A stretch of DNA of 64,000 nt from Bacteroidetes bacterium 46-16. Its GTDB lineage: Bacteria > Bacteroidota > Bacteroidia > Chitinophagales > Chitinophagaceae. Below, piece by piece: positions 18,064 to 40,201 of the stretch. Within the stretch, counting starts at the first letter, position 1; every line of letters starts with the position of its first letter. The stretch lies in the NCBI GenBank assembly GCA_001897835.1, contig MKUN01000029.1:62001-126000 (forward strand). Reading direction: 5' to 3'. Below the pieces are notes generated by a model. The model was not told where the DNA came from and ran no database searches. It saw only the letters and a list, made by a program, of their open reading frames with translations. Both the position numbers and the translations under genes were made by a program.

Positions 18064-18074
18064 AAAATTAAACT

Positions 18075-19346
18075 ATGGAAAATAAACTCCTACAATCCAT
18101 TTTACAAGCAGGTCTTTTAGATATTGGCGACAGCGATGAAAGGCTTGAGAATATTGTGAAATCTATTGCCGACCTTGATGCAAAGTTAAAAAAAGAACAA
18201 CATCTTTTGCCCGCTTATACACTAGTAGCTATGGATCCAAATATTGGCTCTGATGAGCCGGTATTGGTTGAGGTGGAGACAATAATTTCCAACCATTGGA
18301 AAGCGTTGCGAGCTAAATTTTCTGAGACGCCTATTCCAATAATCAGAGCAGTTATATTACATGCTTTGTATAACACGGGAATGAGCGACCCTAAAATTGC
18401 TAGAATTATTTATCTGAGCGGCTCAAATTTTTACCCATTTGCAAAACTGAGTCGCGAAAGAGAGGTAGTAGAAAAGATAATTTCTGACCTCGGTGAATTA
18501 GCCGAAGAAAATGCTTCTGAAGAATGGTCATTAAGTAGTGAGCCTCAATCATTAAAATTGGGAGTGATAAAAATCAATGGATTGAAATTTGGTGATATAT
18601 CTCTAGATACGGATTCGTTAACAAGTGGTCTAAAAACTGCTGCCCAGCCAGATCCTGCAACAGGACATGGCCCTCAACATGGTAATGCAAATTGGCAAAA
18701 TCATTTTTCAAACACGGCCTCGTCTGCAATAAGTAATGCAATTAATATGGTCATCTCAGAACTCACCTCGTCTTTGTCTTCAGAATCCCTGGAAACTCCC
18801 ATCAACAAGTTCTTCGGAGATTTTAAAAAATCACTAGATCAAGCATTAAAATCCTCATTTAATTCCATACAGGCTGTAGAAAGAAGAAGCAAGCTATTAT
18901 GGTGGAAAGAAACGCTATATTCTTCATCCTTAAAGAATAGCTATCGTAGCGTGAGTAATATGCTTCAGCCTATTATTATGGCTGAAGATCTGTATCAGCA
19001 ATTACCCGCTGTGGTTCCAGTAAGCGTTGATTATTTGCTTAAAGACACTTTATTATTAGTGAACAATGAAGCAAATAAGAAAATGAAATTTTCTACCTTT
19101 TTAAAAGAAGTATCAAAACCTGAAAACATAGCCATTGCAAAAGAATATTTCGGAGATCGGGATGTATTAAATAGAAGGGTGCCAATTACTGATTTTATTG
19201 CCTTGCTATGCCACGAAAAAGTAGAAGCTTCGATGGTTAAAAAATATACTGGAATTGATGAAACGGAGCAAGTGTCTTTGGCGGACATTGGTGTGATGAT
19301 GTTTCATGATCTAATGGCTGAATACCTAATACCAAAATCGAAATAA
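18075..19346 (+). CDS. GASH: all-helical protein of the GTPase-associated conflict system
   Basis: The 423-residue protein is almost entirely helical, with EEHA-type low-complexity stretches and no catalytic motif. The N-terminus (LQSILQAGLLDIGDSDERLENIVKSI) and the segment NHWKALRAKFSETPIPIIRAVILHAL resemble the GTPase-associated system helical (GASH) family, predicted by comparative genomics to accompany paired TRAFAC GTPases. It is likely a scaffold or sensor. It is directly followed, one base later, by the first GTPase, in an operon of five genes. Recognition rests on fold impression and context. Confidence 0.75.
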   Translation: MENKLLQSILQAGLLDIGDSDERLENIVKSIADLDAKLKKEQHLLPAYTLVAMDPNIGSDEPVLVEVETIISNHWKALRAKFSETPIPIIRAVILHALYNTGMSDPKIARIIYLSGSNFYPFAKLSREREVVEKIISDLGELAEENASEEWSLSSEPQSLKLGVIKINGLKFGDISLDTDSLTSGLKTAAQPDPATGHGPQHGNANWQNHFSNTASSAISNAINMVISELTSSLSSESLETPINKFFGDFKKSLDQALKSSFNSIQAVERRSKLLWWKETLYSSSLKNSYRSVSNMLQPIIMAEDLYQQLPAVVPVSVDYLLKDTLLLVNNEANKKMKFSTFLKEVSKPENIAIAKEYFGDRDVLNRRVPITDFIALLCHEKVEASMVKKYTGIDETEQVSLADIGVMMFHDLMAEYLIPKSK

Positions 19347-19347
19347 C

Positions 19348-20307
19348 ATGGCTGGAAATTGTTCACAAGAAGACTGTTATCCGGAAGAAACAGGTTGCAA
19401 TCATGAGGGATGCGATGTTTTAACGGATTGCCAATTTTATAAGAAGCAAGCCAATCAAGTAGCCACAGAGAAAGAAGAGGAAGATGACTTTTATGTAAGG
19501 GTTCCTTGGACCGGCAATACATTAGGCTTGCAGGATTTGAATTTTCTTACGTCTACATCACCTGTAACTCTAATAGGGATCACCGGCGTAGCCAGTGCAG
19601 GAAAAACAACTTTCCTGGCAACTCTATATTGTTTACTTCGGCATGGACATAAAATAGGAGACTTTCAATTTGCTGGGTCGTTAACCTTAGTAGGTTGGGA
19701 AAATATAGCCTGGTATCTCAGTTGGAATACACATAACGATGTTCAATTTCCTCCTCATACCAGTAGTAATGCAGGGCGAATACCAGGGTTACTTCATATT
19801 TCTTTGAGAAACAAAAATGGCGAAAAAAAAGAAGTAGTCTTTACCGATGCTCCAGGTGAATGGTTTGGCCATTGGATTGTGAATAAAAATGATAGTAATG
19901 CCGCAGGTGCTCAATGGATTCATGAGTATGCAAATGCATTTCTTTTGTTTGCCGACTGCGAAATGCTCTCAGGAAATCAATTAGGTAAAGCACGTCAACA
20001 AACAAAACAAGTAGCGGATAGACTGAAATACAATATTAAAAACCGACCTCTAGGCTTGGTTTGGTCAAAGTCTGATATAGATATTGACCCAGAAGTGAAA
20101 AAGCAAATTTCAAACCATATTCAAAACTCACCCCTTTCCAACTATCAGGAATTTGAAACGAGTGTACGAAATGAAAAATCTACAGATTGGCAAATGAATA
20201 TTTTGGAAAGTATCAATTGGATATTGACGATATTATCAGCTGACACAAATGAACTACCTATGGTAAGCCGATTTGCTTCGACAGACTTATTCCTTTCAAA
20301 AAGATAA
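19348..20307 (+). CDS. TRAFAC-type GTPase (double-GTPase system, DO-GTPase2-like)
   Basis: An N-terminal Cys/His segment (GNCSQEDCYPEETGCNHEGCDVLTDCQFY) could bind zinc. Then GITGVASAGKTTFLATLY near residue 77 is the Walker A P-loop, FTDAPGEWFGHW supplies the switch-II-like Asp, and GLVWSKSDID near residue 225 takes the place of the NKxD guanine-specificity motif. Family knowledge: in the GTPase-associated conflict systems two such GTPases occur side by side and probably act as a switch. It starts one base after the GASH stop and is followed four bases later by the second GTPase. Confidence 0.82.
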   Translation: MAGNCSQEDCYPEETGCNHEGCDVLTDCQFYKKQANQVATEKEEEDDFYVRVPWTGNTLGLQDLNFLTSTSPVTLIGITGVASAGKTTFLATLYCLLRHGHKIGDFQFAGSLTLVGWENIAWYLSWNTHNDVQFPPHTSSNAGRIPGLLHISLRNKNGEKKEVVFTDAPGEWFGHWIVNKNDSNAAGAQWIHEYANAFLLFADCEMLSGNQLGKARQQTKQVADRLKYNIKNRPLGLVWSKSDIDIDPEVKKQISNHIQNSPLSNYQEFETSVRNEKSTDWQMNILESINWILTILSADTNELPMVSRFASTDLFLSKR

Positions 20308-20311
20308 TGAA

Positions 20312-21160
20312 ATGGATGCAACAAATAATACGATACTAATTATTGGAGGTCCAAATGCCGGAAAAACACATTTTGGTGGACAATTGTACGGGAGGTTAAA
20401 TGCAAGAACTGAAAGCTATAAAATCACTTCTCCTCCTGAAGATCTTACTATTTTTCAGGAGGTTTTGGATAATTTGAACGATGGGAAATCATCAGGGCAT
20501 ACGAATGTATCTGCTCACAAAACTCTCGAACTAGAAATAGAAGACGGTTCAGGTGCAAAATCTGTCTTTAGTTTTCCAGATTATGGTGGTGAGCAGGTAC
20601 GGACAATCGTGCACGACCGTCGCATTAATAAGGTCTGGAAAGAACAAATTGATAAGAGTAATGCTTGGATGTTATTTGTCAGGCTTGACGAAATAACTAT
20701 GATAGAAGATGTAGTAAACAGAGGGTTGCCTGACCAAGAAGTGCTAAGGAATAGGAATGAAAAAACTGAACCAATGACCTTATCCGACACGGCATTTTAT
20801 ACAGAGTTGCTGCAAATTCTATTATATATCAAGAAAATTGGTGTAAAGCAAAAAATAGCGAATCTTAAACTAACAGTCGTTCTATCCTGTTGGGATTTGT
20901 TGCCAGATGGAGATCAAAATAAAATCCCGGAAGAGATATTACAGGACAAAGTTCCAGGATTATTTAGCTACATCACCAGCACTTGGAAACAAGAGACGTA
21001 TAATGTGATAGGATTGTCTTCCATTGAAAAAACGCTCTCCGACAAGGAATCTGACCATGATTTTGTGAAAAAGGGTCCGGAAAATTTTGGGTATGTCATC
21101 ACCAGTGCCGGACAAAAAGAAACAGATTTAACGCTAACAATTTCTACCCTCATTGGCTAG
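20312..21160 (+). CDS. TRAFAC-type GTPase (double-GTPase system, DO-GTPase1-like)
   Basis: I use the ATG at 20312 (MDATNNTILIIGGPNAGKTHFGGQLYG), which puts the P-loop at residue 12; an earlier in-frame start at 20273 would overlap the previous gene. SFPDYGGEQVRTIVHDRRI is a clear switch-II region with DxxGxQ, and LTVVLSCWDLLPDG stands where NKxD is expected. The two GTPases differ strongly in sequence, so a heterodimer is plausible. It overlaps the GAP1 gene by 8 bases. Confidence 0.82.
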   Translation: MDATNNTILIIGGPNAGKTHFGGQLYGRLNARTESYKITSPPEDLTIFQEVLDNLNDGKSSGHTNVSAHKTLELEIEDGSGAKSVFSFPDYGGEQVRTIVHDRRINKVWKEQIDKSNAWMLFVRLDEITMIEDVVNRGLPDQEVLRNRNEKTEPMTLSDTAFYTELLQILLYIKKIGVKQKIANLKLTVVLSCWDLLPDGDQNKIPEEILQDKVPGLFSYITSTWKQETYNVIGLSSIEKTLSDKESDHDFVKKGPENFGYVITSAGQKETDLTLTISTLIG

Positions 21161-23687
21161 GAAAGATCAAATAAAAATACACCAGGCATTTTATGGTGAG
21201 GTGAATCGCTCGCACGGATGCTTGTGTTCAACCATAGAGAATGCAGTATTAAAGACATTCTTAACAGGATTTACAGATCGCCCAAGTTCCTTGCCTGCAG
21301 GCATAACTATGGAGCCGTATTATTCTGCCACAGTATATGGAAAACATTATGTATTTGCCAAAACATCTCCCGATAACACTGCTCAACGAGCAGGAATGGT
21401 TTTCACTCATGTTTTGATAACTGATGTCGAGGATATTGAATGTATAAGTAACCTTGAAAGCTTATTTGGCTATTTTTATAAAACGATCCCCGAGCATAAA
21501 ACTTTATTGCAAGAGTTGATTATTCCAGTCTCATCGCTTGAGGTAGAAATCGATAGTGACTCTTTCCCCAAATTTGTTTTGCTTGGAGCACAAGAGCTGA
21601 TCTCCGGCAAGCTGCCGATATTGTTTTGCGGAGCATCAGAAGCATTCATTGATTTAATAGCCCCTATTTGGGCAGGGCTCCCTAAATCGTTTCGAGCAAA
21701 AATATCATATACGGCTGGCTTTTCCACAACAAATATTGACACTTCTAAAACTTTCATCGTTTTTCAGGGTGATCTGGAAGAATCATTAAGAGCGAGCAAG
21801 TTCATATCGGACAAGAATAACAACTTGGCTGAAACTAATAATACGGTAGAAAGATATATCCTCACGCCGCATGCCGACAACCAATTTGAATTATTCATAA
21901 AAGAATTAAATGTTAATCTTGACAGCTGGATTATTTTACAATCATGTGCAAAAGCGTACGAAGCGTACAAAAATTATACAGAGCTTACTAATGATGCGTT
22001 AAAACAATTAATACGACAGTTGGCAAAAATATCGCCTGATAAGAATAATGGGCGATCCATCAAAACCCAAATTGTAGCTGAAACCGTAAAACGAATTAAA
22101 GCTGAAAAAGAAATCAATTTAAAATCGCTTAAAAACCTCCCACTTGACGCTTTTAGTAACGGAGAAGAAATGCTTGCAGATACTGTAGGGGCTTTTGTTG
22201 AGAACGAACTCAACAGAAGTCAAAACTTTAATGACAGACTTATATCTGAGGTCATTATAGTTTCTTGCATGGAGACTCAACTAAATTGGTGGCATAATGC
22301 AGTGATAAAAGCCTTTAAAAAAACCATTGGTGAGGAGAGAGCAATAAGCTTTCAAAATCTCTGGCAAGTACTGATGTTATCAAAGGATTCTATGTCCGCG
22401 ATTTTATCTTTTTTGCCGAATGATAAAAAGCAGGAAGGCCTACTTATAAAATATTTCCCAAAAAATGTCCCCAAGCAATTTGCGGAACATTTCGCAAAGG
22501 TCATTTTAACAAGGAAATGGTTACTTCTTCACGCTTATTTAATACAGACATACTTAGCTTCTAAAGAGGCCGCAAAACAACAATTGCATTTAGAAAAAAA
22601 TGCTTCGCCAAATTCTTTCGAAGGCACTAAGCATATCATTAAAAATGTAAGCGATCAAGACCTGCTTTCTTTGACTATGGAAACTAACGAAAGTTATTTT
22701 ATAGCTGAATATGCAGTACGCTCAACAAAGAAGCCGGCTTTACTGCATAGACTGGATGTTAAAAATCCAATATGGCTCTCTATCTGGGCTAATTCCTTAG
22801 AAGAAACAAATGATCTGGAACATGGAATACTCAGTTTGTCAGAGAAGGTTGATCAATTACTTAATGATATAACCGAGGGAAAGAATGTTCCTGACGCAAT
22901 TGTTCATCAACTAGCACATAGTAAATATGCGGACATTTCGAGATTAAAGAGCCGTGTTCATCTGTGGAAACACCTGCGGCCAGGAATAAAGCAGCTATTC
23001 CTCGATGCTACAGCAAACGAATTGATAAAGAACATTTCAACTGAAGGCCTAACCAACGTAACTATTGAAACGGAATTGTCAAATCACATATCTACTGAAA
23101 GGTTCATGTCTAATTTACTTGAAACATATAGATCAGACATAAACACTGTTTTGGAAATCTTTGAGTATATAGATGGGTGCGAAGATGGATTTCTTGCTAA
23201 GTATATAAGATACTATACGAATAGCTTAAACGACATACAATCTGCTCGACTAGGGAATTTGATATTGTCCAAACAATTTCGCTTATCTGCGAAACAAATT
23301 TTCAATAAAGCCAAAACCAATAAAATCTTTAAAATTGCATTGACCAAATGCCAATCTATTGCGGGCTTAGACTTCTGGGATAGGCTTTCTTGGGGGTGGT
23401 TAATTGGAGAAACCGTGTCTGCCGATTCTGTTTTTTCTGAACTTATGAGAATATCAGTTAGATTATATGATAAAGGACCAGAGGAGAATGATATATGGAA
23501 AAGAGCCGGTGGGGACGTTAGTAAGTTGCACAACCATAGATCTAGGGAAGAAAATTGGCAAAATGCCATCAGATTGTTAAGAAATGGTGGAGGAGGAAAT
23601 ATTTCAGTTGAGTCATTGATTAAAGAAATGATGGAGGAGCATCCCAATAATTCAGAATTAAAAGAAATAGCAAAATACTTCAAATAG
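21153..23687 (+). CDS. GAP1: large GTPase-associated protein with C-terminal EAD1
   Basis: Translation probably begins at the TTG at 21153 inside the end of the preceding GTPase gene. The N-terminal about 240 residues (KIHQAFYGEVNRSHGCLCSTIEN, then YYSATVYGKHYVFAKTSPD and RAGMVFTHVLI) match the GAP1-N domain. A long helical middle follows. Residues about 768-844 form an effector-associated domain 1: LYDKGPEENDIWKRAGGD, then GGGGNISVESLIKEM. The same domain ends the next protein, so GAP1 is expected to recruit that effector by EAD1-EAD1 contact. Three bases separate the two genes. Confidence 0.85.
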   Translation: MARKDQIKIHQAFYGEVNRSHGCLCSTIENAVLKTFLTGFTDRPSSLPAGITMEPYYSATVYGKHYVFAKTSPDNTAQRAGMVFTHVLITDVEDIECISNLESLFGYFYKTIPEHKTLLQELIIPVSSLEVEIDSDSFPKFVLLGAQELISGKLPILFCGASEAFIDLIAPIWAGLPKSFRAKISYTAGFSTTNIDTSKTFIVFQGDLEESLRASKFISDKNNNLAETNNTVERYILTPHADNQFELFIKELNVNLDSWIILQSCAKAYEAYKNYTELTNDALKQLIRQLAKISPDKNNGRSIKTQIVAETVKRIKAEKEINLKSLKNLPLDAFSNGEEMLADTVGAFVENELNRSQNFNDRLISEVIIVSCMETQLNWWHNAVIKAFKKTIGEERAISFQNLWQVLMLSKDSMSAILSFLPNDKKQEGLLIKYFPKNVPKQFAEHFAKVILTRKWLLLHAYLIQTYLASKEAAKQQLHLEKNASPNSFEGTKHIIKNVSDQDLLSLTMETNESYFIAEYAVRSTKKPALLHRLDVKNPIWLSIWANSLEETNDLEHGILSLSEKVDQLLNDITEGKNVPDAIVHQLAHSKYADISRLKSRVHLWKHLRPGIKQLFLDATANELIKNISTEGLTNVTIETELSNHISTERFMSNLLETYRSDINTVLEIFEYIDGCEDGFLAKYIRYYTNSLNDIQSARLGNLILSKQFRLSAKQIFNKAKTNKIFKIALTKCQSIAGLDFWDRLSWGWLIGETVSADSVFSELMRISVRLYDKGPEENDIWKRAGGDVSKLHNHRSREENWQNAIRLLRNGGGGNISVESLIKEMMEEHPNNSELKEIAKYFK

Positions 23688-23690
23688 ACG

Positions 23691-24704
23691 ATGATTAAGG
23701 TTTTAATACAAACTGCATTAAGCTTAGAATTTGCCGCTGTTAAGGCATTTTTAAAAAATACTAAAGTGATAAGGCATCCTTCAACAGGGTCTATTTACAA
23801 TAAAGGCAAGTATAATGAAAATGAAATATTGCTTGTAGAAACCGGGACGGGTAATGTAAGGTCTGCGGACGAAACCGGACGAGCTATTGAATATTTTCAA
23901 CCGGATTATGTTTTTTTTGTAGGGGTAGCAGGGGGCCTGAAAGATGTTAAAATTGGCGATGTTGTTGCAAGCTCAAAAATTATCGGATTTGAAATGGGAA
24001 AAGACGACACCGAGTTCAAACCGCGATTAGACACCATACCCTCTTCTTATATTTTAGAACAGGTAGCCAAACATGTAAAGAGAGAAGGACACTGGAAACA
24101 ATTAATCAAAATAGAAAACGATGATGTACCAGAAGCATTTGTACAACCAATAGCTGCTGGGGAAAAAGTGGTCTCCTCTAATAAATCTGCCACCTATACT
24201 TATTTAAAGAAATATTGTAGTGATGCGGTCGCAATAGACATGGAAGGTAATGGCTTCTTGATAGCAACAAGGCCATATCATGCTCACGCGATCGAGGTAC
24301 GAGGAATATCAGACTTAATTGAGAATAAAGCAGAGACTGATGCAGAAGGGTCTCAACCGAGAGCTGTTGCTAATGCTGCTGCATTTTGTTTTGAAATGAT
24401 CAGTCAAATTGAGGTTGCAAGTGTAAAGCTCCCAGATATGACGTCGTTAGAGTTTCGAAAAGTATTAGTAGACAAGCTTGTGGAGCTGTATCCGCAAGGC
24501 CCTGAACAAGATGACATTTGGAAAAGGGCTGGCGGTGACATCTCAATTATTTCAAATTCTGCAAGTCGAAAATCTCAATGGTTTAATGCTATCGAAAAAC
24601 TATATTTGGGAGGCGGAGGGAAGGGAATTTCAATCACGACTTTGATGAACGAAATAAAAGAAGATTTTCCCAAAGCAATACAGCCGTTTATAAAAATGGA
24701 TTAA
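23691..24704 (+). CDS. Nucleoside phosphorylase effector fused to EAD1
   Basis: Residues 1-245 form a PNP/UDP-type nucleoside phosphorylase or nucleosidase: VLIQTALSLEFAAVKAF, ETGTGNVRSADETGRAIEYFQPDYVFFVGVAGGL, and AIDMEGNGFLIATR with EVRGISDLI (catalytic Glu and Asp in the usual motifs). Residues about 260-335 are a second EAD1: LYPQGPEQDDIWKRAGGDIS, then GGGGKGISITTLMNEI. Inference: on activation by the GTPases and GAP1 the enzyme degrades a nucleoside or nucleotide pool. It is the last gene of the operon, and the likely toxic output. Confidence 0.88.
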   Translation: MIKVLIQTALSLEFAAVKAFLKNTKVIRHPSTGSIYNKGKYNENEILLVETGTGNVRSADETGRAIEYFQPDYVFFVGVAGGLKDVKIGDVVASSKIIGFEMGKDDTEFKPRLDTIPSSYILEQVAKHVKREGHWKQLIKIENDDVPEAFVQPIAAGEKVVSSNKSATYTYLKKYCSDAVAIDMEGNGFLIATRPYHAHAIEVRGISDLIENKAETDAEGSQPRAVANAAAFCFEMISQIEVASVKLPDMTSLEFRKVLVDKLVELYPQGPEQDDIWKRAGGDISIISNSASRKSQWFNAIEKLYLGGGGKGISITTLMNEIKEDFPKAIQPFIKMD

Positions 24705-24757
24705 TTTAACTGTATGCAATAATATTAGCGAAAGTGTCTCATGGCAAGCACAAGTTT

Positions 24758-25066
24758 TTAGTTAAGTCGCAAGTATACTTTGCTACCAATTCCCGGATGA
24801 TACGAAGGCTGATACTTGATATAACCAAGGGAATCAAGCTCTTTGATACATTTATGGTAGGTCACGATGCTCTTAATCTTTGCCTTTTGCATTACGGCTC
24901 GTCTGGTGATGTTGAACGGATTAACGTAATCGTTCCTAATCCAATAGGAAAAAAGTACAAAGTAAATACTCATGTGGGTAGAGGATAGCCGCGCATCGTC
25001 TTTGACGATGCAAAAGAAAGCACTTAACGCATCTTTGCCGCTATTCCTCTGTAGTTCCTGCATCAA
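24758..25066 (-). CDS. Winged-helix-like small protein of a mobile module
   Basis: The 102-residue protein contains TSHMSIYFVLFSYWIRN-like text (here SSTHMSIYFVLFSYWI), FNITRRAVMQKAKIKSIVTYHKCIKELDSLGYIKYQPSY: a winged-helix DNA-binding pattern, with a recognition helix and the beta wing. Such proteins are common beside excisionase-like genes in Bacteroidota mobile elements. It overlaps the next gene on the minus strand by 26 bases, consistent with co-translation. Confidence 0.6.
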   Translation of the reverse strand: MMQELQRNSGKDALSAFFCIVKDDARLSSTHMSIYFVLFSYWIRNDYVNPFNITRRAVMQKAKIKSIVTYHKCIKELDSLGYIKYQPSYHPGIGSKVYLRLN

Positions 25067-25313
25067 GTAACTGCTTGATTTCTGATAGACGATAAAAATA
25101 GACCCCTTCGATTTTAGAGGGTTTCAGAAGTCCCTTGATCCGAAGGTTCATCAAAGTACCGTTTGATATTCCGAGCATAGCTTTTACCTCTTTAGTACGG
25201 AGCCACTGTTTCTCTTGCTGGCCGCCTTTCTGGTGCATGTATTCTGTTATAGCTTGCAGTAGCTCACTTTTAAATGCTTCAAAGTCTTGTTTTGTTACTA
25301 GCTCAATCTGCAT
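25041..25313 (-). CDS. Helix-turn-helix (excisionase-like) DNA-binding protein
   Basis: A 90-residue protein with a helix_turn_helix_17 type domain: WLRTKEVKAMLGISNGTLMNLRIKGLLKPSKIEGVYFYRLSEIKQLL. The N-terminal part is a charged helix. Such proteins regulate or assist excision and mobilization in Bacteroidota elements. It sits between the winged-helix protein and the replication-relaxation protein, all on the minus strand. Confidence 0.8.
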   Translation of the reverse strand: MQIELVTKQDFEAFKSELLQAITEYMHQKGGQQEKQWLRTKEVKAMLGISNGTLMNLRIKGLLKPSKIEGVYFYRLSEIKQLLDAGTTEE

Positions 25314-25330
25314 AGTGTTTCAATTTTACG

Positions 25331-26173
25331 TTATTGAAAAATGAGTGGTTTGCCATGTATGTCTCTCCATGCCTTGCCAAAGTCTACTTTGATATCTGGC
25401 AGACTGGCAAAAAAGAAGTAGGGACTGATACTTGCAAACCTTTCATTCTCTCTCAGCCTGTTTACGATAGATTCCAATGTTTTCTCATGATAGAATGCAC
25501 AGAGAACGATTGCATTATCCTGAACGCCGTATTTTTTACTTGCAACTCCCTGTGCCAGCACCTTTGCATGGGTGGCTATAGATTGCAGCACTCTCTGAAG
25601 GTTTCTGCTATCGTCACAAAACATTTCAACCAGCAGGAGCTTTGTTTTACTATCCTTTTCTATGACGAAGATTCCGTCCGGTATCACACGTCTTCCATCA
25701 TTCAAAAGGAGTTGTGCTTTCGACTGGAGGGTGTTGCCTTTGGTACTGCCGACATGATCATAGTAGGTAACAAATTCAGCTACGTGTATACCGCACTGTT
25801 CCATGTGCATATGTGCATGGATGAAACAATCAATTGATGCATTTCTATGTTGATAATCGCGTACAATCTGAACTTTCCCTGACTGCGGAGCAGTCACCAA
25901 TCCAAACGACTTGTTACTATTTACGAAATCAGCACCAGCCGGTGTGAGGTAAAAGGTATCCTCGGCTCTGACGTGTGACGTGAGGGTCACACGAAACGAC
26001 TTTACGTACTGCCTGTCTTTTTTCAGTGATCTTAAAAGCTGCCTGAGATAGGACAGGCTTTTGCCACCAGTTAACACCTGAAACTGGCTCGTTGTTAAGA
26101 ACCTGTATTTCGCAAGGCTCTCCATTATCGTGCATTCCGTGCTATTCAGTAGCAGCATGTCCTTTTGTATCAT
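25331..26173 (-). CDS. Replication-relaxation family protein (winged helix plus nuclease-like domain)
   Basis: The N-terminal about 75 residues form a winged helix (MESLAKYRFLTTSQFQVLTGGKSLSYLRQLLRSLKKDRQYV). The second half, with VIPDGIFVIEKDSKTKLLLVEMFCDDSRNLQRVLQSIATHAKVL, has a D-x-n-E-x-like pattern reminiscent of the replication-relaxation/MobC-like family on mobilizable elements. The catalytic status is not clear. It is one base from the downstream ATPase gene, suggesting an operon. Confidence 0.6.
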   Translation of the reverse strand: MIQKDMLLLNSTECTIMESLAKYRFLTTSQFQVLTGGKSLSYLRQLLRSLKKDRQYVKSFRVTLTSHVRAEDTFYLTPAGADFVNSNKSFGLVTAPQSGKVQIVRDYQHRNASIDCFIHAHMHMEQCGIHVAEFVTYYDHVGSTKGNTLQSKAQLLLNDGRRVIPDGIFVIEKDSKTKLLLVEMFCDDSRNLQRVLQSIATHAKVLAQGVASKKYGVQDNAIVLCAFYHEKTLESIVNRLRENERFASISPYFFFASLPDIKVDFGKAWRDIHGKPLIFQ

Positions 26174-26174
26174 A

Positions 26175-27608
26175 TCAGCTAAAATGGGGTTTTAGATTAT
26201 CGTCAAACAAGTCATCTTTTGTTACCTTTTTAGGCGTGTCATCTACGGTAGGGTTCTCTAAGACAGATGAGACGGTATTTCTTAGAGAAAGAGGAGCCTT
26301 TCTGTAAATGCCTGATTCATACACTAAGTAGTCCATCAACGATTTTCTCTCGGAAACTGACAGGAAAAACCGTTTTGCAAGTATTGGTACACGAAACTTG
26401 TAGGCGGTATGTCTGCCGTCATTCTTTCTTGCCATAAATTCTAATGTTTGCAATTTGTCCAGGGACTGCATTGAGGTCTGTAGCTCCTTCGACATTTCCA
26501 GTTTACCGGAATGATCAAGCAGTCCTACTATCTTGATACCACAGTTTACCATAGATGTGTTTTTCATATTTTTTTCCAGTGAAGAAGTGGACTGTACTGC
26601 AAGAACACAACTTAGCCCCCATTTTCTGGAAGCTGTTAGGTTGCTAATGATACTTTTACATGCTATTTCATGATACTCGTCCAAAAAGAGCCAACAGAAT
26701 TTACGCTCTTTCCTCTCCACCATCGCACGGCGGGTCATACAGGCATGTATGAAAGCTGTTGTAAGACGTGAAACCACACTTGACGTGAATCTACCCGCAG
26801 CTTGAGGTAAATCTAAAATCAGCACTTTTCCAGTTTGTAAACATTCATCAAGTTTCACTGTTGAACGTCCACACACCATGTTATGCAACATAGGATCGGC
26901 AAGGAAGTACAGGAGCTTTGTACGGATAGAGGACTTCGTTAAAGTATAAGACCCGTTTTGCCAGTCATGCTGGAAAAACTGCCTATATATAGGAATCGGT
27001 GAGTTTTTACCTATTTCAAGCAAATCCGCATTTTGTCCATCTTTATCCAAGAAGAAACGAGCGAGGGTTGCAAGGGAGGGGTCGGGGCTGCACATAACGG
27101 TAAAAATTGCAGGTCTAAGCAATGCAGACATCTGTATAGAGAGTGCATTAAAAGTATTCGCTGAACTTTCCAAGAGTTCAGTAAGAGCATCCGCAATTTC
27201 ATTTGCATAAACTGCCTTTGCCTCAATCGAATCTTCGGGCACTTCAAAAGGATTGATAACCGCAGTATAAGTTTCATTTGTGTTTGCCTCTTTATTTATT
27301 GCACTACTCACGTACACCAGTCTTTCCCTGTCCCTGTTATGGACGAAATTGAGAAGTGTTTGCGCTGTATCTCCGTGTATGTCCACGAATACCATCGCAC
27401 AGTCTCTTTTTCTCTGTGATTTTCTTTGCATATCAAAAAACATTAGCTCCATTAATTTCGATTTCCCGGAACCTGTCTTTCCAACTATGAGTGTATGGGA
27501 ATCGACTTTTATACGTGCTGTTATCAACGTGCGTGAAAAAAAAAGATAACATACGATACGCATGACACGACTGAAAAAGGAGCGAGAGGTAATCTTCATC
27601 ACTATCAC
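26175..27608 (-). CDS. VirD4/HerA-like DNA-translocating ATPase, C-terminal frame (frameshifted gene)
   Basis: SHTLIVGKTGSGKSKLMELMF near residue 37 is a Walker A, KFCWLFLDEYHEIA the Walker B, and LAVQSTSSLEKNMKNTSMVNCGIKIVGL a typical TraG/VirD4 sensor region. The family pumps DNA in conjugation or mobilization. The N-terminus of this frame (before residue 25) overlaps a second open frame at 27433-27951; both meet at a run of nine A at 27536-27544. The intact protein was probably about 590 residues, read from 27951 and shifted here. Either the gene is broken, or the run slips, or it is a read error. Confidence 0.72.
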   Translation of the reverse strand: MIVMKITSRSFFSRVMRIVCYLFFSRTLITARIKVDSHTLIVGKTGSGKSKLMELMFFDMQRKSQRKRDCAMVFVDIHGDTAQTLLNFVHNRDRERLVYVSSAINKEANTNETYTAVINPFEVPEDSIEAKAVYANEIADALTELLESSANTFNALSIQMSALLRPAIFTVMCSPDPSLATLARFFLDKDGQNADLLEIGKNSPIPIYRQFFQHDWQNGSYTLTKSSIRTKLLYFLADPMLHNMVCGRSTVKLDECLQTGKVLILDLPQAAGRFTSSVVSRLTTAFIHACMTRRAMVERKERKFCWLFLDEYHEIACKSIISNLTASRKWGLSCVLAVQSTSSLEKNMKNTSMVNCGIKIVGLLDHSGKLEMSKELQTSMQSLDKLQTLEFMARKNDGRHTAYKFRVPILAKRFFLSVSERKSLMDYLVYESGIYRKAPLSLRNTVSSVLENPTVDDTPKKVTKDDLFDDNLKPHFS

Positions 27609-27951
27609 GGGACAGATGATAAATAAGCCGCTTTCGCTCCTTTTCCATAGTCAAGTCTAAGCAACGGAAGATGATGAAATCCTTATAGGATTGCTCCGTG
27701 ATACCGACTTGAAACAAGTGTTGATATTCTGCGAATGTAAACCCACGTACTTGCAGCAACTCCTGATATTGTTGACTACCTTCACGTGCAAAATGGAGTA
27801 GTGTATCTATTTCTGCGGTATGCACCTCCAGCACCTTGTCTATTCCCGCCATAGCTTGAAACGGTTGCAGACATCCTACCGCCACCCCATCGGTCTCATT
27901 ATCTATTCCTGCACCTTGCAGAAACAGTCGTTTCATTTCTTTCTGATTCAT
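27433..27951 (-). CDS. N-terminal frame of the frameshifted DNA-translocating ATPase
   Basis: Residues 1 to about 137 (GIDNETDGVAVGCLQPFQAM, HTAEIDTLLHFAREGSQQYQELLQVRGFTFAEYQHLF) read like a regular protein and then, after the T-run, turn into an anti-frame of the Walker A region. On the coding strand, a shift inside the nine T at 27544-27536 would join it to the ATPase frame. I read this as the true N-terminus of that gene and not as a separate protein. Confidence 0.6.
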   Translation of the reverse strand: MNQKEMKRLFLQGAGIDNETDGVAVGCLQPFQAMAGIDKVLEVHTAEIDTLLHFAREGSQQYQELLQVRGFTFAEYQHLFQVGITEQSYKDFIIFRCLDLTMEKERKRLIYHLSRDSDEDYLSLLFQSCHAYRMLSFFFTHVDNSTYKSRFPYTHSWKDRFREIEINGANVF

Positions 27952-28126
27952 ATGTATTTATTTACCTTAATATGTCAATAGTAAGTAGCACAGTCACAAG
28001 CACCATCACTACCGCCAACCCCTTTGTATGTTCATAACCCATTGTGCCACAATGCCTTTATAGCCGTTTTGCCGCGCAACTACCATACCTCCCTCCCAGC
28101 TCGTCATCGTGATTCGCAACCGCTCA

Positions 28127-28408
28127 TCACTCAAACTCACTGGTCGGGGATATTGCTCTCGCATCGTTCAGCAGTTTTTGAATTGCTTCTGCTTGCTCTG
28201 ATTCCATGCTATTGTACTGTCTCCGTTCTAAGTTTTGAAGTAACTGGATCACAGTCCCCATTGTCGTAGCTACTTGGTTAACGTGCCTGTCAGAAATCTC
28301 TCCTGATAGTTGGGAGGAGTTCCGGGCGGCGTTCGCCCATTCTATAGAGTATTGTCGTAATAGTTCGTTTTGTGCTTTGACTGTTTGTGACTCAAGTGCT
28401 TTGAAATA
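28127..28408 (-). pseudogene. Truncated mobilization-module gene, C-terminal about 90 residues
   Basis: The minus frame from about 28408 to the TGA at 28127 encodes a heptad-rich helix with LESQTVKAQNELLRQYSIEW and QLLQNLERRQYNS, ending ISPTSEFE. It has no start codon that gives a sensible N-terminus and stops abruptly at 28408. It is the upstream neighbour of the translocating ATPase and looks like a gene cut off at the junction with the TPR gene. The remaining bases 27952-28126 show no gene. Confidence 0.5.
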
Positions 28409-29924
28409 CTACGATAAGTCTCTTGAAGCGAACCCGAACGACAATATCACTCTCAACAACATCGGCGCAAACCTAATGCAACAAGGACGCATTAAGGAAG
28501 CCAAAAAATACTTTTGGGATGCGGTCAAAATTGATCCTAATTATCCCAACACCCACTACGCTTTAGCCCTAATTGCAAAAATGGAAGGAGACTTACATTC
28601 TGCGCTGTATAGCGTTATTGAAGCTATAAAAAAGAATCCCAATAAAAACACGCTGTATACAAACTCGGTGAAAGATGCTTTAGCTATCAGTCTCAAATTG
28701 ATGGACACAGTTGATGGTAAAGCAATCCTGAAAGGATATGCTGATAAACTGGAAGAGGAGTCGGGCAAAAAAATTGTCTTTGTAGCAGAGCCAAGTATTC
28801 CAACTGCTGCCAAACTGGAGATAGCCGAGAATTATGACAGAGATGAGCATATCGTTCGTTATAAACCAAGCTACCCAGCTGTTGAGCATTTGCAGATGCA
28901 TGAACTCGTGCATTTGGATTTCGTCGTGCAAGCAAGAAAAGCAAATCTGAATAAGCTATTCACGTCTACGCAACAAGATAAGCAACGCTTCATTCGGACT
29001 CTTGAGCCGACTATCAAACGCCTCAACAAGATGGGTATTTCGGATGAGGCCCTTGCGAACTATTGCAGTAGCCTTTTCGATGGTTTAAACAGACAGATAT
29101 TCAACGCGCCTATCGATTTGTTTATCGAAGACCTACTGTATCAGGAATTTCCTGACTTAAGAGCATACCAGTTCCAGTCCTATTATGGATTGGTAAAAGA
29201 AGGGTTGCAAGCCGTAACAGACAAAAAGATTGTTGATCTTTCGCCAAAGGATGTGCTGTCCAAAAGCAAGATTTACAATCTTATCACGGCGATGCATTTC
29301 AAAGATCTGTTTGGTATCGACTTAGTCAATGACTTTAAAGCGACAGCGATCGAACTCAATCAGGCGAAGGAACTCTATGAGGAGTTTCTCGAATACAGAG
29401 AAGACAGAGAACCTGGAGAGGAATATGAGCTGGTACAACACTGGGCAGAAGATCTCCATGTTGATAGCTATTTTGAATTGGTTGATGAGCAAGAATACCG
29501 TAATAAGAGAACAAACCTTGATAACATTCTTGAGTCAATTGAGAAAGATCCGTACGGTGTAGAAGAACAAGATCCATATAAGGACAAACAAATGGAAACG
29601 TTCCAAAAATCGCAAGCCGAGATTGGAACGAATATGGCAGTGGTGATGTTTATGGTTGATGCTATGCAATATTTTGAAGGCATGCCTAAACAGAAAGTAC
29701 GGGAAGTAGCGTTTGAAATTGCAACACTTGGGACTCAAGGGATCAAGCCGGACGGTAAGTATGTATTACGTACTGTACCCAAGAAAGACTTCAGCGGCTA
29801 TCACTTGCTGGCCTACTACTATGTAAGTTGGGCAATTGCTGTGCCTGAAATGCTAAAAGAACTACACTTGCCATACGATGATGAATATGCGATGGCAAAA
29901 ACAATGTATAAACTGAAAAGATAA
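28377..29924 (+). CDS. TPR protein with HEXXH motif, probably 5'-truncated
   Basis: The frame opens at a TTG (28377) inside the truncated minus-strand gene and begins mid-repeat: SALKYYDKSLEANPND is the second half of a TPR. One and a half more TPRs follow (to about residue 95). HELVH near residue 174 is a zinc-peptidase-like motif in EHLQMHELVHLDFV. The remainder is helical and rich in acidic residues. The stop overlaps the start of the MazG-like gene (TAATG), so translation is coupled. Function unknown; the N-terminus was probably lost at the junction. Confidence 0.65.
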   Translation: MTVCDSSALKYYDKSLEANPNDNITLNNIGANLMQQGRIKEAKKYFWDAVKIDPNYPNTHYALALIAKMEGDLHSALYSVIEAIKKNPNKNTLYTNSVKDALAISLKLMDTVDGKAILKGYADKLEEESGKKIVFVAEPSIPTAAKLEIAENYDRDEHIVRYKPSYPAVEHLQMHELVHLDFVVQARKANLNKLFTSTQQDKQRFIRTLEPTIKRLNKMGISDEALANYCSSLFDGLNRQIFNAPIDLFIEDLLYQEFPDLRAYQFQSYYGLVKEGLQAVTDKKIVDLSPKDVLSKSKIYNLITAMHFKDLFGIDLVNDFKATAIELNQAKELYEEFLEYREDREPGEEYELVQHWAEDLHVDSYFELVDEQEYRNKRTNLDNILESIEKDPYGVEEQDPYKDKQMETFQKSQAEIGTNMAVVMFMVDAMQYFEGMPKQKVREVAFEIATLGTQGIKPDGKYVLRTVPKKDFSGYHLLAYYYVSWAIAVPEMLKELHLPYDDEYAMAKTMYKLKR

Positions 29925-30253
29925 TGAATGATTTTGCTGACATAGCTGAGGCATTAGCCAAATTTTCACAAGATCGGGATTGGGAGCAATTCCACAATCC
30001 GAAGGACTTGGCTATAGCGATAAGTATCGAAGCGAATGAACTCCTTGAATTGTTTTTGTGGAAGTCACCGACAGAAGCCGACAAGGAAAAAGTAAAACAG
30101 GAGCTTGCAGACATCCTCAGTTTCGCATTTTTGCTGGCAAAAAAATATGACCTTGACGTGAAACAGATTATATTAGATAAAATATCGCTAAACGATGAAA
30201 AGTATCCCGTTGACAAGGCGAAGGGTACTGCGAAAAAATATAACGAACTATAA
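29924..30253 (+). CDS. MazG-like nucleotide pyrophosphohydrolase
   Basis: The 109-residue protein has the all-alpha NTP-PPase signature: DRDWEQFHNPKDLAIAISIEANELLELFLW and KQELADILSFAFLLA, with the ExxE and ExxD metal ligands, then KISLNDEKYPVDKAKGTAKKY. The family hydrolyses (d)NTPs to the monophosphate. In the middle of an operon with the TPR/HEXXH gene and a DUF2075 ATPase, a role in depleting or editing nucleotides during phage infection is possible (inference). Confidence 0.88.
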   Translation: MNDFADIAEALAKFSQDRDWEQFHNPKDLAIAISIEANELLELFLWKSPTEADKEKVKQELADILSFAFLLAKKYDLDVKQIILDKISLNDEKYPVDKAKGTAKKYNEL

Positions 30254-30271
30254 ACGAAATCAGTCTCTGCA

Positions 30272-32134
30272 ATGATTGTCTACCAGGCTACAAAATCTGA
30301 ATTCTCTGACGATGTTTTAGCTGATACTATAGAAACCAAGATTCACGACTTCTTTAAAAAACATCTCAATAAAAGCACTTCCCGGCAGGAAATAATATCA
30401 TGGAAAAATTCACTTCAGTACATGGATCGTGTGCTAAATGATAACGAGATTCCTGACGATTGCGGAGTAACTATAGAATACCAGCTTCCACAAACTGCCA
30501 AACGCATAGATTTCATCCTTACGGGCACCAGTGCTGAAGATAAAGAGTACGCTATACTTGTCGAGTTGAAGCAGTGGTCGGAAGCGACTTTGTCTGATAA
30601 AGATGGTGTTATTAATTCGTTTGTCGGAGGAGCAGTGCGTGAATTACCCCACCCATCCTACCAAGCATGGTCATATGCGACATTACTGCAAAACTTCAAT
30701 GAAACCGTAGCGACCGAAAATATCAATCTGAAGCCATGTGCTTACCTGCATAACTATATGCCTGACGATGTAATCACTAACGAGCATTATCAGGAGTATA
30801 TCGATAAGGCTCCTGTATTCCTGCGGGGCGACGCTATAAAGCTAAGAAACTTCATAAAGGAGTTTGTGAAGCATGGAGATAAAAGAAAAATGATATATCG
30901 CATTGAGCAAGGAAAGATTCGTCCTTCAAAAATGCTTGCAGATTCGATGGTTTCCCTGCTTCAGGGGAATCATGAATTCGTCATGATCGATGACCAAAAG
31001 ATAGTGTACGAAACAGCACTGTCGATGTCGCAAAAAGCTACCGCCAATAAAAAGCAGGTGCTTATTGTCAAAGGTGGGCCAGGGACTGGAAAATCAGTTG
31101 TGGCTATCAATTTACTGGTGGAAATTACCCGGCAAGGGTTGCTTGCGCAATACGTATCCAAAAATGCAGCGCCCAGGGCGGTCTATGAAAGCAAGCTTAC
31201 GGGAACATTGAAAAAGACGGTCATCTCAAACCTTTTCAGTGGGTCAGGTGCGTTTATCAATACCAAGCCAAATACATTCGATACCCTTATTGTTGATGAG
31301 GCTCATAGGCTCAACGAAAAATCAGGGTTATATAGTAATCTCGGCGATCACCAAATAAAGGAGATTATCAATGCTGCCAGGTGCTCAGTGTTTTTTATTG
31401 ACGAAGACCAAAGGGTCACGCTTAATGATGTGGGTACTCTGAAAGAAATATACAAATGGGCTGAGCTAGCGAATGCGGAGATTGTAGAAATGGAACTATC
31501 ATCACAGTTCCGGTGCAACGGTTCAGACGGATACTTGGCTTTTCTCGATCATCTACTGCAAATTAGGGAGACGGCCAATACTTCGCTAGAAGGCATAGAC
31601 TACGATTTCAGGGTCTTCTCTAATCCTAAGGAAATGCTTGAGGCAATTAAGGAAAAGAATAAGATCAATAATAAGTCCCGCATGGTTGCCGGATACTGCT
31701 GGGAATGGGCAAGCAAGAAGAATCCTGAGCTGTATGATGTAGTGATCCCCGACTACGACTTCAAGATGCGGTGGAATCTCACGCAGGATGGCAGCCTATG
31801 GATCATCAGCCCGGAATCAGTAAATGAAATAGGTTGTATCCATACCTGTCAAGGGCTGGAAGTTGATTATGTTGGTGTAGTCATCGGGCCGGATTTAATC
31901 GTTCGTGATGGTAAAGTGCTTACCCAACCCTTAGCCAGGGCACGGTCTGACAAGTCCATCTTTGGCTATAAGAAACTACTGGAATCTAAGCCGGAGGAGG
32001 GCAAAGCAACGTTACGTGCAATAATCAAAAACACATACCGAACACTTATGACGCGGGGCATGAAGGGCTGCTATGTGTATTGCATGGATGAAGAAACTGA
32101 AGCTTATTTTAATTCAATGATGAAGAAATTTTAG
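30272..32134 (+). CDS. DUF2075 (Schlafen group 3-like) ATPase/helicase
   Basis: The 620-residue protein has an N-terminal PD-(D/E)XK-like region (RIDFILTGTSAEDKEYAILVELKQWSEAT, D and ExK) near residues 75-105, and a DUF2075 superfamily 1 helicase domain: VKGGPGTGKSVVAINLL near 265, TLIVDEAHRLNE near 338, FIDEDQRV and IHTCQGLEVDYVGVVIGPDL. The nuclease plus helicase build suggests DNA or RNA processing. It is 18 bp from the MazG-like gene and ends the operon. Such DUF2075 genes are frequent in defence islands. Confidence 0.85.
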   Translation: MIVYQATKSEFSDDVLADTIETKIHDFFKKHLNKSTSRQEIISWKNSLQYMDRVLNDNEIPDDCGVTIEYQLPQTAKRIDFILTGTSAEDKEYAILVELKQWSEATLSDKDGVINSFVGGAVRELPHPSYQAWSYATLLQNFNETVATENINLKPCAYLHNYMPDDVITNEHYQEYIDKAPVFLRGDAIKLRNFIKEFVKHGDKRKMIYRIEQGKIRPSKMLADSMVSLLQGNHEFVMIDDQKIVYETALSMSQKATANKKQVLIVKGGPGTGKSVVAINLLVEITRQGLLAQYVSKNAAPRAVYESKLTGTLKKTVISNLFSGSGAFINTKPNTFDTLIVDEAHRLNEKSGLYSNLGDHQIKEIINAARCSVFFIDEDQRVTLNDVGTLKEIYKWAELANAEIVEMELSSQFRCNGSDGYLAFLDHLLQIRETANTSLEGIDYDFRVFSNPKEMLEAIKEKNKINNKSRMVAGYCWEWASKKNPELYDVVIPDYDFKMRWNLTQDGSLWIISPESVNEIGCIHTCQGLEVDYVGVVIGPDLIVRDGKVLTQPLARARSDKSIFGYKKLLESKPEEGKATLRAIIKNTYRTLMTRGMKGCYVYCMDEETEAYFNSMMKKF

Positions 32135-32267: not shown

Positions 32268-33512
32268 ATGCCATATACACCTAATGATGAAAATATCACT
32301 GTAGACAATGCACAAAAAACTGTCTTTCACTATTGTGACGATAAGTCAATACCAATATTTTTAGCGAGAGAGCTTTTTAAAAAGCAGGCAAAACTTATTA
32401 TACACCCGTACTATGCGAATCGAACAACAGGTGCAATAAGGCAACCTAGAGTAACCACCATTGAATTTTTAGGATGGACACGTTTCGAGGACTTACCAGA
32501 TGAGTTCAAAAAGCACATAAAAGGATCAACCTATTATGGTATCCACTCCAAGGTTCTCAAAGAGTTTTTAGCGCCAATTATCAGAAAATTGCCTAGACTT
32601 AATAAAATAGTATTTGGCGCGAGCGTAAAGACAAGATTTTCAGAAAAAACCGTCACTATTAACTGGAACACAGTAGATAGAATTCTCACAGAGATAAAGA
32701 AAGAAAATGCATACTATGCAAAGAATAAGCGTTTTCTAATAAACAATGAGATTGCTGCTTTAACTACCAAATTCTCCCCTCAAACAAAAGAAATTTATGC
32801 CAATGAATTAAAAGCATTCATCGGAAAATTTGATGGATTTGGCAGAATGACTGATGATGACACGGAGGCACTTTCCAAAGTACTTGAGGTACTGCCTAAA
32901 AGCAAAATTTCAGTGACGTCTAACTTCATAAAGACAAAAGATAAAATTAATATAGCTTATCTGGAGGATATTATATCAGAATTCGAAAAGCTAATGAAAA
33001 TAGACATAGATAATGAAAAAAAGTGGCAACTATTCTTTGAAGTACATTCATGGGTTTTTTCGCATCTATTTCCATATGATGTCATACTTAGGCAAAAGGA
33101 GGCTTATGTTGGTGGCAAAACAATTGCTAATAAAGATGGAAAGGTTGTTGACTTTCTTCTATCAAATGGATTCAAAGACAACTACGCACTTATAGAAATA
33201 AAGACTCACAAGAAGGCCTTGTTGGGTAAAACTGCATACAGGGGAACCGATGTATTCACTATGTCGGACGACCTTTCTGGTGGCATAAATCAATGTTTGG
33301 ACCAAAAGGACAATTTTCTAAAAGAATTTGGGAAGACAGAAAATCCTATTGATCCAAAGTGTATATTAGTTATCGGTAGGAAAAATGAGTTGTTGCCCGA
33401 CCAAACCAAATGCTTTGAATTACTTAGGGCGAATCAAAAAAATGTCGACATAATTACGTTTGACGAGTTGTTAGCAAAGTTAAAAGGTCTACTTAAAGTT
33501 TTAAAAAATTAG
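32268..33512 (+). CDS. sduA: Shedu nuclease SduA (DUF4263)
   Basis: The C-terminal third is a DUF4263 domain: KWQLFFEVHSWVFSHLFPYDVIL, then VVDFLLSNGFKDNYALIEIKTHKKAL near residues 291-314, where D and ExK form the PD-(D/E)XK site, and TDVFTMSDDLSGGINQCLDQKDNFL. The N-terminal part (residues 1-200) is a variable, probably sensing region. Shedu is a single-gene anti-phage system whose oligomeric nuclease cuts DNA. It stands alone, with 132 bp upstream, and is likely autonomous. Confidence 0.9.
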   Translation: MPYTPNDENITVDNAQKTVFHYCDDKSIPIFLARELFKKQAKLIIHPYYANRTTGAIRQPRVTTIEFLGWTRFEDLPDEFKKHIKGSTYYGIHSKVLKEFLAPIIRKLPRLNKIVFGASVKTRFSEKTVTINWNTVDRILTEIKKENAYYAKNKRFLINNEIAALTTKFSPQTKEIYANELKAFIGKFDGFGRMTDDDTEALSKVLEVLPKSKISVTSNFIKTKDKINIAYLEDIISEFEKLMKIDIDNEKKWQLFFEVHSWVFSHLFPYDVILRQKEAYVGGKTIANKDGKVVDFLLSNGFKDNYALIEIKTHKKALLGKTAYRGTDVFTMSDDLSGGINQCLDQKDNFLKEFGKTENPIDPKCILVIGRKNELLPDQTKCFELLRANQKNVDIITFDELLAKLKGLLKVLKN

Positions 33513-39250: not shown

Positions 39251-40201
39251 ATGGCAAATATGGATTGGTCATCACTGGTGGAAATAGATGATAGTTGGTA
39301 CGCTAATCAACTAGTTGAACATTTCAAAGAAATTAACGAAAAGATCACCGTCGTTGTAAATACAGTAAAGGTATCTGGTACAACAATGTTGCCAGACAGC
39401 TTAGTTTCCGTACTGCATGATATGTTACCTGAATATGTATTCGGTAAGAAGAAAATAGAGGAACTAGGCATCAAAAAGGCAGCTCTTACCGCAAATAGAT
39501 TTTTTGGAGAAAGACATACGAACTCAGAAGGGAAATTTGGTGAATTATTACTTTTTGCATTAGTTGAATCGGTATTAAAATGCAAAATGGTTGCTCACAA
39601 AATAAGGAGTCTTACAAATATGAGCGATCAAGTAAAAGGTGGAGATGGACTTTTTCTTGGAAACTATACTTTGCCTGACATGACAGTTGAGTCTGCCTTT
39701 CTTTTAGGGGAATCAAAAATAGTCAGTTCATTAGCAATCGGCCTTCATGAGGCCTTCAGCTCATTAGACAGGTTTCATAACCAATTACGTTCGCCTGAAT
39801 TTCGATCAACAGAACTTCTCGTTGCTAAAGAAAATGTTTTGTTGAGCAATGATGTAGACTTAGATGAGCTATATAAACGTTTAAATGTAGAAACCGAAGA
39901 ATACAAAGATCAAATACATGTCCACCCCGTACTAATAATGTTTAACACAAAGAGCATTGGTAGAATGGAGCAAAAAGCACTTAGCCGTTCTGATTTAGAA
40001 GCTAAAATATCGACCTATATCACAAAGGCAAAAGGAAATATAGCGACGGGAATTGCTAAGCAAATCAAGAAATATCAAGACGTCTCCAAGGTTTATCTCC
40101 ACTTTTTCATAGTACCATTTAATGACGTTAACAAATTCCGTAACGCTATGTATTATGCAATACATGGAGTGAATTATCCAGAAAAAGAAGCAGATGAGTG
40201 A
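39251..40201 (+). CDS. hamA: Hachiman nuclease HamA (DUF1837)
   Basis: The 316-residue protein shows the DUF1837 signature: EGKFGELLLFALVESVLKCKMVAHKIRS (Glu helix), then GGDGLFLGNYTLPDMTVESAFLLGESKIVSS, where the Asp and the ExK of a PD-(D/E)XK site are visible. HamA is the nuclease of the Hachiman anti-phage system and is held in check by the helicase HamB until damaged or foreign DNA ends are met. The gene overlaps hamB by 8 bases, the normal arrangement for the pair. Confidence 0.92.
   Translation: MANMDWSSLVEIDDSWYANQLVEHFKEINEKITVVVNTVKVSGTTMLPDSLVSVLHDMLPEYVFGKKKIEELGIKKAALTANRFFGERHTNSEGKFGELLLFALVESVLKCKMVAHKIRSLTNMSDQVKGGDGLFLGNYTLPDMTVESAFLLGESKIVSSLAIGLHEAFSSLDRFHNQLRSPEFRSTELLVAKENVLLSNDVDLDELYKRLNVETEEYKDQIHVHPVLIMFNTKSIGRMEQKALSRSDLEAKISTYITKAKGNIATGIAKQIKKYQDVSKVYLHFFIVPFNDVNKFRNAMYYAIHGVNYPEKEADE

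Follow-up and report, generated by a model that had tools for sequence, protein, structure and literature searches.

The window analysed here, a stretch of 64,000 nucleotides from Bacteroidetes bacterium 46-16 (contig MKUN01000029.1, positions 62,001 to 126,000), encodes a tetratricopeptide repeat protein with an HExxH peptidase motif (TPR-HExxH), a MazG-like pyrophosphohydrolase and a PD-(D/E)XK nuclease-helicase in one operon. The arrangement is real, conserved and modular; its parts are ordinary, their combination is unusual, its behaviour as a cassette is clear, and it is nameless as far as our searches reach. MazG and the nuclease-helicase are its regular core. The exchangeable part is a front module that consists of TPR-HExxH, either by itself or together with MazG. 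The genomic context suggests an antiphage function for the operon.

The three open reading frames lie on the plus strand where the initial annotation had placed them, with the following features (dNTP, deoxynucleoside triphosphate).

28377-29924, plus strand: 5'-truncated TPR-HExxH gene, 515 codons counted from the first TTG; homology from 28392/28395
28392-28398, no strand: boundary of the TPR gene with foreign (mobile-element-like) DNA, where a minus-strand open frame (28127-28408) meets the TPR gene head to head
28899-28913, plus strand: HELVH motif, residues 175-179, candidate zinc site
29127-29129, plus strand: E251 within FIED, candidate third zinc ligand by its conservation
29924-30253, plus strand: MazG-like all-alpha dNTP pyrophosphatase of the DCTPP1/RS21-C6 type, with a 1-base overlap with the TPR stop codon
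30272-32134, plus strand: PD-(D/E)XK nuclease fused to a Schlafen-group-3 (former DUF2075) helicase
30476-30676, plus strand: nuclease motif region E69...D80...E98-x-K100...Q131-xxx-Y135, invariant in 22/22 homologues
31052-32089, plus strand: SLFN-g3 helicase domain, residues 261-606, with Walker A GGPGTGKS and Walker B DEAH

The TAATG that couples the TPR gene to the MazG-like gene and the 18 base pairs (bp) between the latter and the helicase gene are both present in the sequence. Pfam profiles agree with the names first given to the three proteins: TPR (PF07719, E 1.2e-10), MazG-like (PF12643, E 3.2e-18, 66.2 bits against a cut-off of 27) and DUF2075, now SLFN-g3_helicase (PF09848, E 3.3e-107, 359 bits against a cut-off of 24, with model positions 1-354 of 354 covered).

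Conservation of the triplet, a check proposed in the initial annotation, was followed in 43 TPR loci with their flanks (the window; L001, L002, L004, L036-L055; L059, L060, L079-L094; L157), which were gathered by several differently centred searches and are not a random sample; L079-L089 all belong to one genus. Two loci that end inside the gene (L003, L005) and an 86-codon fragment (L070) were left out, and the TPR matches of genomes G229, G141, G213 and G123 were read only as short loci, some ending at contig ends, in which neither MazG nor a helicase is present. Profile searches covered selected neighbours only, and the simple frame caller hides genes under longer antisense frames; the MazG and helicase counts come from direct searches. 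The order TPR-MazG-helicase is present in 15 of the 43 loci. Eleven are direct (the window, L002, L004, L036, L060, L080-L084 and L157), including imperfect copies that are broken (L002), cut at the 5' end (L004) or split in the TPR frame (L060), and four carry one inserted gene (L053, L090, L091 and L092). The triad in L053 is a distant one, with 27% identity in TPR. MazG lies directly 3' of TPR on the same strand in 17/43 loci; in L090, an additional locus, one gene stands between them. Wherever the spacing was measured (16 loci), TPR and MazG are separated by -8 to +9 bp, and the next gene follows at -14 to +90 bp. The initial annotation would have been contradicted by a lack of any conserved neighbourhood of the three genes; because the triplet recurs, such a neighbourhood exists.

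The inserted gene of L090 (4376-5419) has a 236-residue frame with the look, by eye, of an endonuclease/exonuclease/phosphatase protein, and the MazG behind it contains a stop codon. An unrecognised 362-residue protein lies between MazG and helicase in L091 (10030-11118), L092 (10137-11228) and L053 (10372-11463). Its N-terminal part recurs (28.9% identity) fused to HNH directly behind MazG in L147 (9225-10208). By eye it was read as EVE-like plus PD-(D/E)XK, but Pfam and PDB searches gave no support for EVE and we make no such claim.

The MazG-helicase pair is more regular than the triad. In a survey of 247 Bacteroidota genomes (thresholds E 1e-8 for MazG and E 1e-30 for the helicase), MazG occurs in 20 genomes, at 21 places, and the helicase in 14. 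The two genes adjoin in 13 of the 14 helicase-bearing genomes, with one intervening gene in G172; the exception is G086. The proposal of a three-gene defence system thus holds insofar as the triplet is conserved, but the triplet is not indivisible: 10 of these 13 loci have no TPR homologue within the fetched ~13-19 kb, and TPR-HExxH also fronts other systems. The other eight MazG places include one before a GIY-YIG helicase fragment (L144), two before HNH nucleases (L147, L148), one at a contig end (L146) and one without a recognised partner (L145); three weak matches (G147, G195 and G199) were left out of the context reading. The pair is also found on plasmids of the archaeon Halalkalicoccus and of Priestia. 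In Halomonas, MazG lies downstream of the helicase, and the two genes do not adjoin in the plasmid loci read from Hymenobacter (two loci), Methanosphaera and Streptomyces. In L148 (5389-6619) and L147 (8875-10208) a DCTPP1-type MazG is directly coupled to HNH nucleases, with no helicase or TPR.

Partners are exchanged at gene borders. One case is L079 and L080: their DNA is 90.2% identical along 2307 bp that start at the TPR ATG and end 2 bp after the MazG stop, whereas the genes behind this stretch, McrBC-like in L079 and a GIY-YIG helicase in L080, have no similarity. These near-identical loci represent a natural experiment in which one cassette precedes two different nucleases. Both loci have a ~200-bp repeat (80-84% identity) downstream of their nuclease genes, with three copies in L079 (13959-15507) and just behind the helicase gene in L080; it is possibly tied to the exchange. 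L085, L086 and L088 have only the TPR gene in common (70-78%). On a tree of 40 TPR proteins, whose long branches make some single placements unsure, the partner label needs 17 changes against a minimum of 9. The 29 rows with a recognised partner need 13 against 8, and labelling L093 as MazG-less gives 18 against 10, with a shuffled mean of 24.4. Because of these counts, we consider the partners clustered but repeatedly exchanged. Judging from its unequal identities to L091 (helicase 80%, TPR 48%, MazG 66%), the window operon is again a mosaic.

The systems behind the front module are diverse. With MazG, TPR-HExxH precedes type III Res and Mod (L059), an AAA_5 and DUF2357/PDDEXK_7 pair that we read as McrBC-like (L079) and, after a 245-residue gene, McrB/McrC (L001). 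A MazG/GIY-YIG-helicase pair is convergent with TPR in L093. Genes for a reverse transcriptase and a Ptu-like ATPase lie near TPR in L089, and the MazG of this locus starts ~9.6 kb from TPR, at the end of the fetched stretch. The other 23/43 TPR loci have no MazG in the fetched stretch. Among these, BREX genes stand behind TPR in L038 (BrxA directly, then BrxC) and L086 (BrxC), type III Mod in L040 (frame split) and L088, a SNF2 helicase and a IIG-type enzyme in L037, and PDDEXK_1 with UvrD/PDDEXK, an AddAB-like combination, in L094. L039 carries type III Res on the opposite strand, L085 has genes of the same size as those of L037 (a match in size only), and IIG and SNF2 genes are further off in L042. 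An ATPase of the mad3/AriA type lies ~3 kb off in L048 (E 2.1e-39), and L050 has only a weak mad8 match. The single neighbour profiled in each of L045 and L052 gave no match, the neighbours of L049 and L055 were left out of profiling, and L041, L047, L051 and L087 reach contig ends or are too short.

L083 (8177-16334) has two distinct SLFN-g3 helicases behind TPR-MazG, and an IGHMBP2-like helicase separates the two. L157 (PP438423.1) is a 22-kb record named Microcystis phage Mwe-JY31 that carries an intact triad and, by eye, a serine-recombinase-like gene; the record may represent a mobile element and not a phage. A pattern scan of viral contigs found no relative of the TPR protein, and this one record from a phage collection does carry it.

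The TPR protein has the motifs of a zinc metallopeptidase. The HELVH site noticed in the initial annotation belongs to an HExxH motif that is complete in 38/39 aligned homologues, and E251, the putative third ligand, is likewise kept in 38/39; the split or partial copies L002, L004 and L060 were left out of this alignment. Its peptidase activity and its target are predicted from these motifs and from gene context. Outside the TPR part no Pfam family matches at E 0.01, and the NCBIfam matches of three full-length relatives are all below cut-offs.

The suspected 5' truncation is evident from the full-length relatives, which mostly have ~640-690 residues. Similarity begins only at 28392/28395, at about residue 150 of most of them, so the window gene is without ~150 N-terminal residues; the peptidase motif, MazG and the helicase are intact. 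A search of the genome for the missing start with a relative's N-terminus gave generic TPR matches only (best E 0.019). Mobile-element-like sequence abuts the gene near 28,395, and the minus-strand frame enters the junction from the left. Because plasmid searches at the protein and DNA level with that frame and with 24700-28420 found no match for the mobile-element side of the junction, deletion, insertion or misassembly may each account for the truncation. In the window, MazG and the nuclease-helicase probably remain as an intact pair behind a damaged front gene, and the copy therefore probably works, if at all, as that pair. Next to the truncated gene, the minus strand of 24734-28400 encodes mobilisation-type proteins (Replic_Relax and a coupling-protein-like ATPase).

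By profile and motif, the MazG-like protein is a predicted DCTPP1-type dNTP pyrophosphatase. It is a relative of the all-alpha dCTP pyrophosphatase DCTPP1, to which its residues 5-109 align (PDB 6sqw, E 2.2e-20), and the window protein has the acidic ExxE...ExxD pattern found in 15/16 MazG proteins checked, with L002 deviating. DCTPP1 hydrolyses dCTP and C5-modified dCTPs (PMC7162842). The window protein differs from DCTPP1/RS21-C6 in being bacterial and coupled to nuclease operons, and by analogy it may prefer dCTP or modified dCTP; its substrate is only predicted.

The nuclease-helicase combines two recognisable parts. Its helicase domain is complete, as in eukaryotic Schlafen group 3, and it carries both Walker motifs of SLFN-g3 helicases. 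The possible PD-(D/E)XK region of the initial annotation is borne out at the motif level: the N-terminus has the RecB-like set (D...ExK with a downstream QxxxY), and E69, D80, E98xK100, Q131 and Y135 are invariant in all 22 homologues. No Pfam match to the Schlafen (AlbA-like) RNase core was found at E 0.01; the PD-(D/E)XK motifs occupy the N-terminus instead. The family has two N-terminal forms, PD-(D/E)XK or GIY-YIG, and this nuclease replaces the RNase core of eukaryotic Schlafen group 3. DNA is the likely substrate, judging from these domains. The GIY-YIG/SLFN-g3 helicases of L080 (5564-7759) and L139 (6786-8978) have a C-terminal domain resembling S24 (LexA/UmuD-type) peptidases.

We regard it as an even bet that the operon forms a two-layer antiphage system, with a MazG/nuclease-helicase core and a TPR-HExxH metallopeptidase as front module. 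The Schlafen-type helicase would bind and unwind invading DNA and its nuclease part would cut it, while MazG could hydrolyse dCTP, C5-modified dCTP or other dNTPs so that the phage nucleotide pool is starved or cleaned. TPR-HExxH would be produced together with whichever DNA-restriction system stands behind it, and its TPR arm may pick the target protein. Because the partner systems are unrelated to each other, this target is most likely common to many infections, such as a host factor or a phage protein that inhibits or counteracts restriction, and TPR-HExxH would therefore guard or back up restriction. More tentatively, and with considerably less confidence, we propose that TPR-HExxH and MazG are a transferable cassette that boosts or guards DNA-targeting systems by simultaneously eliminating modified nucleotides and the anti-restriction proteins of phages. 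McrBC-like systems, type III restriction-modification (R-M) and the nuclease-helicase would be partners of the two together, and BREX, IIG and AddAB-like systems of the peptidase alone. If true, a metallopeptidase and a dNTP pyrophosphatase that move between systems would tie restriction in general to proteolysis and to control of the nucleotide pool.

Several observations weigh against a two-layer antiphage operon fronted by a peptidase. AlphaFold (AF2) models, built from alignments of 4 and 2 rows, are poor for the TPR protein (mean predicted local distance difference test, pLDDT, 51) and the nuclease-helicase (pLDDT 38). Foldseek with the poor TPR model gave nothing at E 0.001; the 50 matches listed are mainly TPR or other helical repeats, with no peptidase named. 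A PDB profile search with the TPR protein returned a single unrelated chain (E 1.2) and recognised no known peptidase fold. The homologue of L054, which has no MazG, is the one without HExxH. TPR-HExxH is also uncommon (3/395, 10/249 and 6/298 genomes in three sets), and in a phylum sample MazG is beside TPR in only 3/22 genomes with a substantial TPR match, some of them contig-cut; because of this count, MazG is not an obligatory partner of TPR-HExxH. In the Bacteroidota genus f18/g60 the TPR gene mostly has no recognised defence gene directly adjoining, and UmuDC/SRAP-type genes lie by TPR in L043, L044 and L046. Such neighbours (UmuDC-type and/or SRAP), noted in one Bacteroidota genus for L042 as well, hint at a DNA-damage context of TPR-HExxH.

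The main rival for TPR-HExxH is a regulatory role. Like CapP, ImmA or IrrE, or like BrxR in role, it could cleave a repressor upon DNA damage or infection and switch on the operon behind it. We hold this to be a serious but minority alternative, to which its position ahead of unrelated systems and the three loci beside SOS-type genes would be well suited, as would the comparable cross-system family BrxR (PMC9122601). No repressor gene cluster recurs beside TPR in L001, L002, L004 and L036-L055, where the directly upstream genes are mostly unprofiled, and coupling to MazG within a few bases suits a co-acting protein better. TPR-HExxH could also be a toxic abortive-infection effector that is released when the restriction system engages or is inhibited, as is TPR-CHAT of Craspase. 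The TPR plus peptidase-motif architecture and partners with only DNA targeting in common are compatible with this role; we think it unlikely, however, as the partners differ completely and share no known sensor interface.

That the window triplet is a mere accident of neighbourhood is very improbable. Islands do collect unrelated genes and the window TPR gene is damaged, but triad order in 15/43 TPR loci, including the distant L053, with gaps of few bases argues otherwise, and the locus counts already contradict an accident for both MazG-helicase and TPR-MazG. A rival concerning MazG alone, which we rate as plausible without favouring it, is that it serves not as a weapon but as a sanitiser that removes C5-modified dCTP and shields the host from its own modification-dependent nuclease. 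Its kinship with DCTPP1, the McrBC-type genes near it in L001 and L079, and its coupling to HNH nucleases in L147 and L148 agree with such a role. In L059, however, MazG is coupled to type III R-M, which is not known to recognise modified C.

The initial annotation knew no named system of exactly this content, and we found none in PADLOC, Pfam, NCBIfam or the literature searched. PADLOC 2.0.0 has no named system containing the three proteins and no match to MazG. The helicase matches PDC-S41, Nhi, AbiO and mad8 only, the best being the candidate PDC-S41 (5.4e-17, over two stretches), which differs in being a single-protein model. The TPR protein has one weak match, to PDC-M71B (E 0.0015), within its TPR part.

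To our knowledge, only a small number of accessory genes move between unrelated defence systems, and the BrxR/CapW regulators are the main known case. The HExxH peptidase CapP of CBASS is likewise a defence accessory, although its partner is the HTH repressor CapH, whereas the frequent partner here is MazG. BrxR/CapW WYL regulators resemble TPR-HExxH in that a single gene family accompanies many unrelated defence systems (PMC9122601); they are DNA-binding repressors, in contrast to a TPR metallopeptidase with MazG. Bacterial Schlafen RNases, which resemble the nuclease-helicase in Schlafen name and defence context, occur in BREX loci and antiphage defence (PMC12839542). DefensePredictor lists MazG among its predicted defence domains, as predictions only, and its available text holds no description of a TPR-MazG cassette (PMC13092281). 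The accessible literature on MazG, DUF2075, TPR/metallopeptidase, Schlafen and DCTPP1, a body without bioRxiv and most subscription articles, does not describe the cassette. MazG does not appear in the available main text of the BREX survey (PMC12839542) or of the McrBC/CoCoNuT survey, which has a TPR protein in one legend (PMC11090510); the accessible part of the EVE/DCD survey has no MazG, only a MutT pyrophosphohydrolase (PMC7641849).

The surroundings confirm the defence island proposed for this window: RloB, a double-GTPase conflict system, Shedu, and HamA with a helicase are all encoded in it. An RloB-like protein is followed by GASH, two double-GTPases, GAP1-N1/EAD1 and a PNP-type phosphorylase (17362-24704), together a GTPase-centred conflict system. 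A Shedu SduA homologue (32268-33512, PADLOC 7.4e-63) starts 133 bp behind the helicase. We rejected it as a fourth operon member; among the loci compared it is matched only by the overlapping locus L120 of the same genome, and the intact triad of L157 has a different, unrecognised protein behind its helicase. HamA (PF08878, 4.1e-27) with a DEAD-box helicase is read as Hachiman (39251-42839), and a tyrosine integrase is encoded at 44536-45828.

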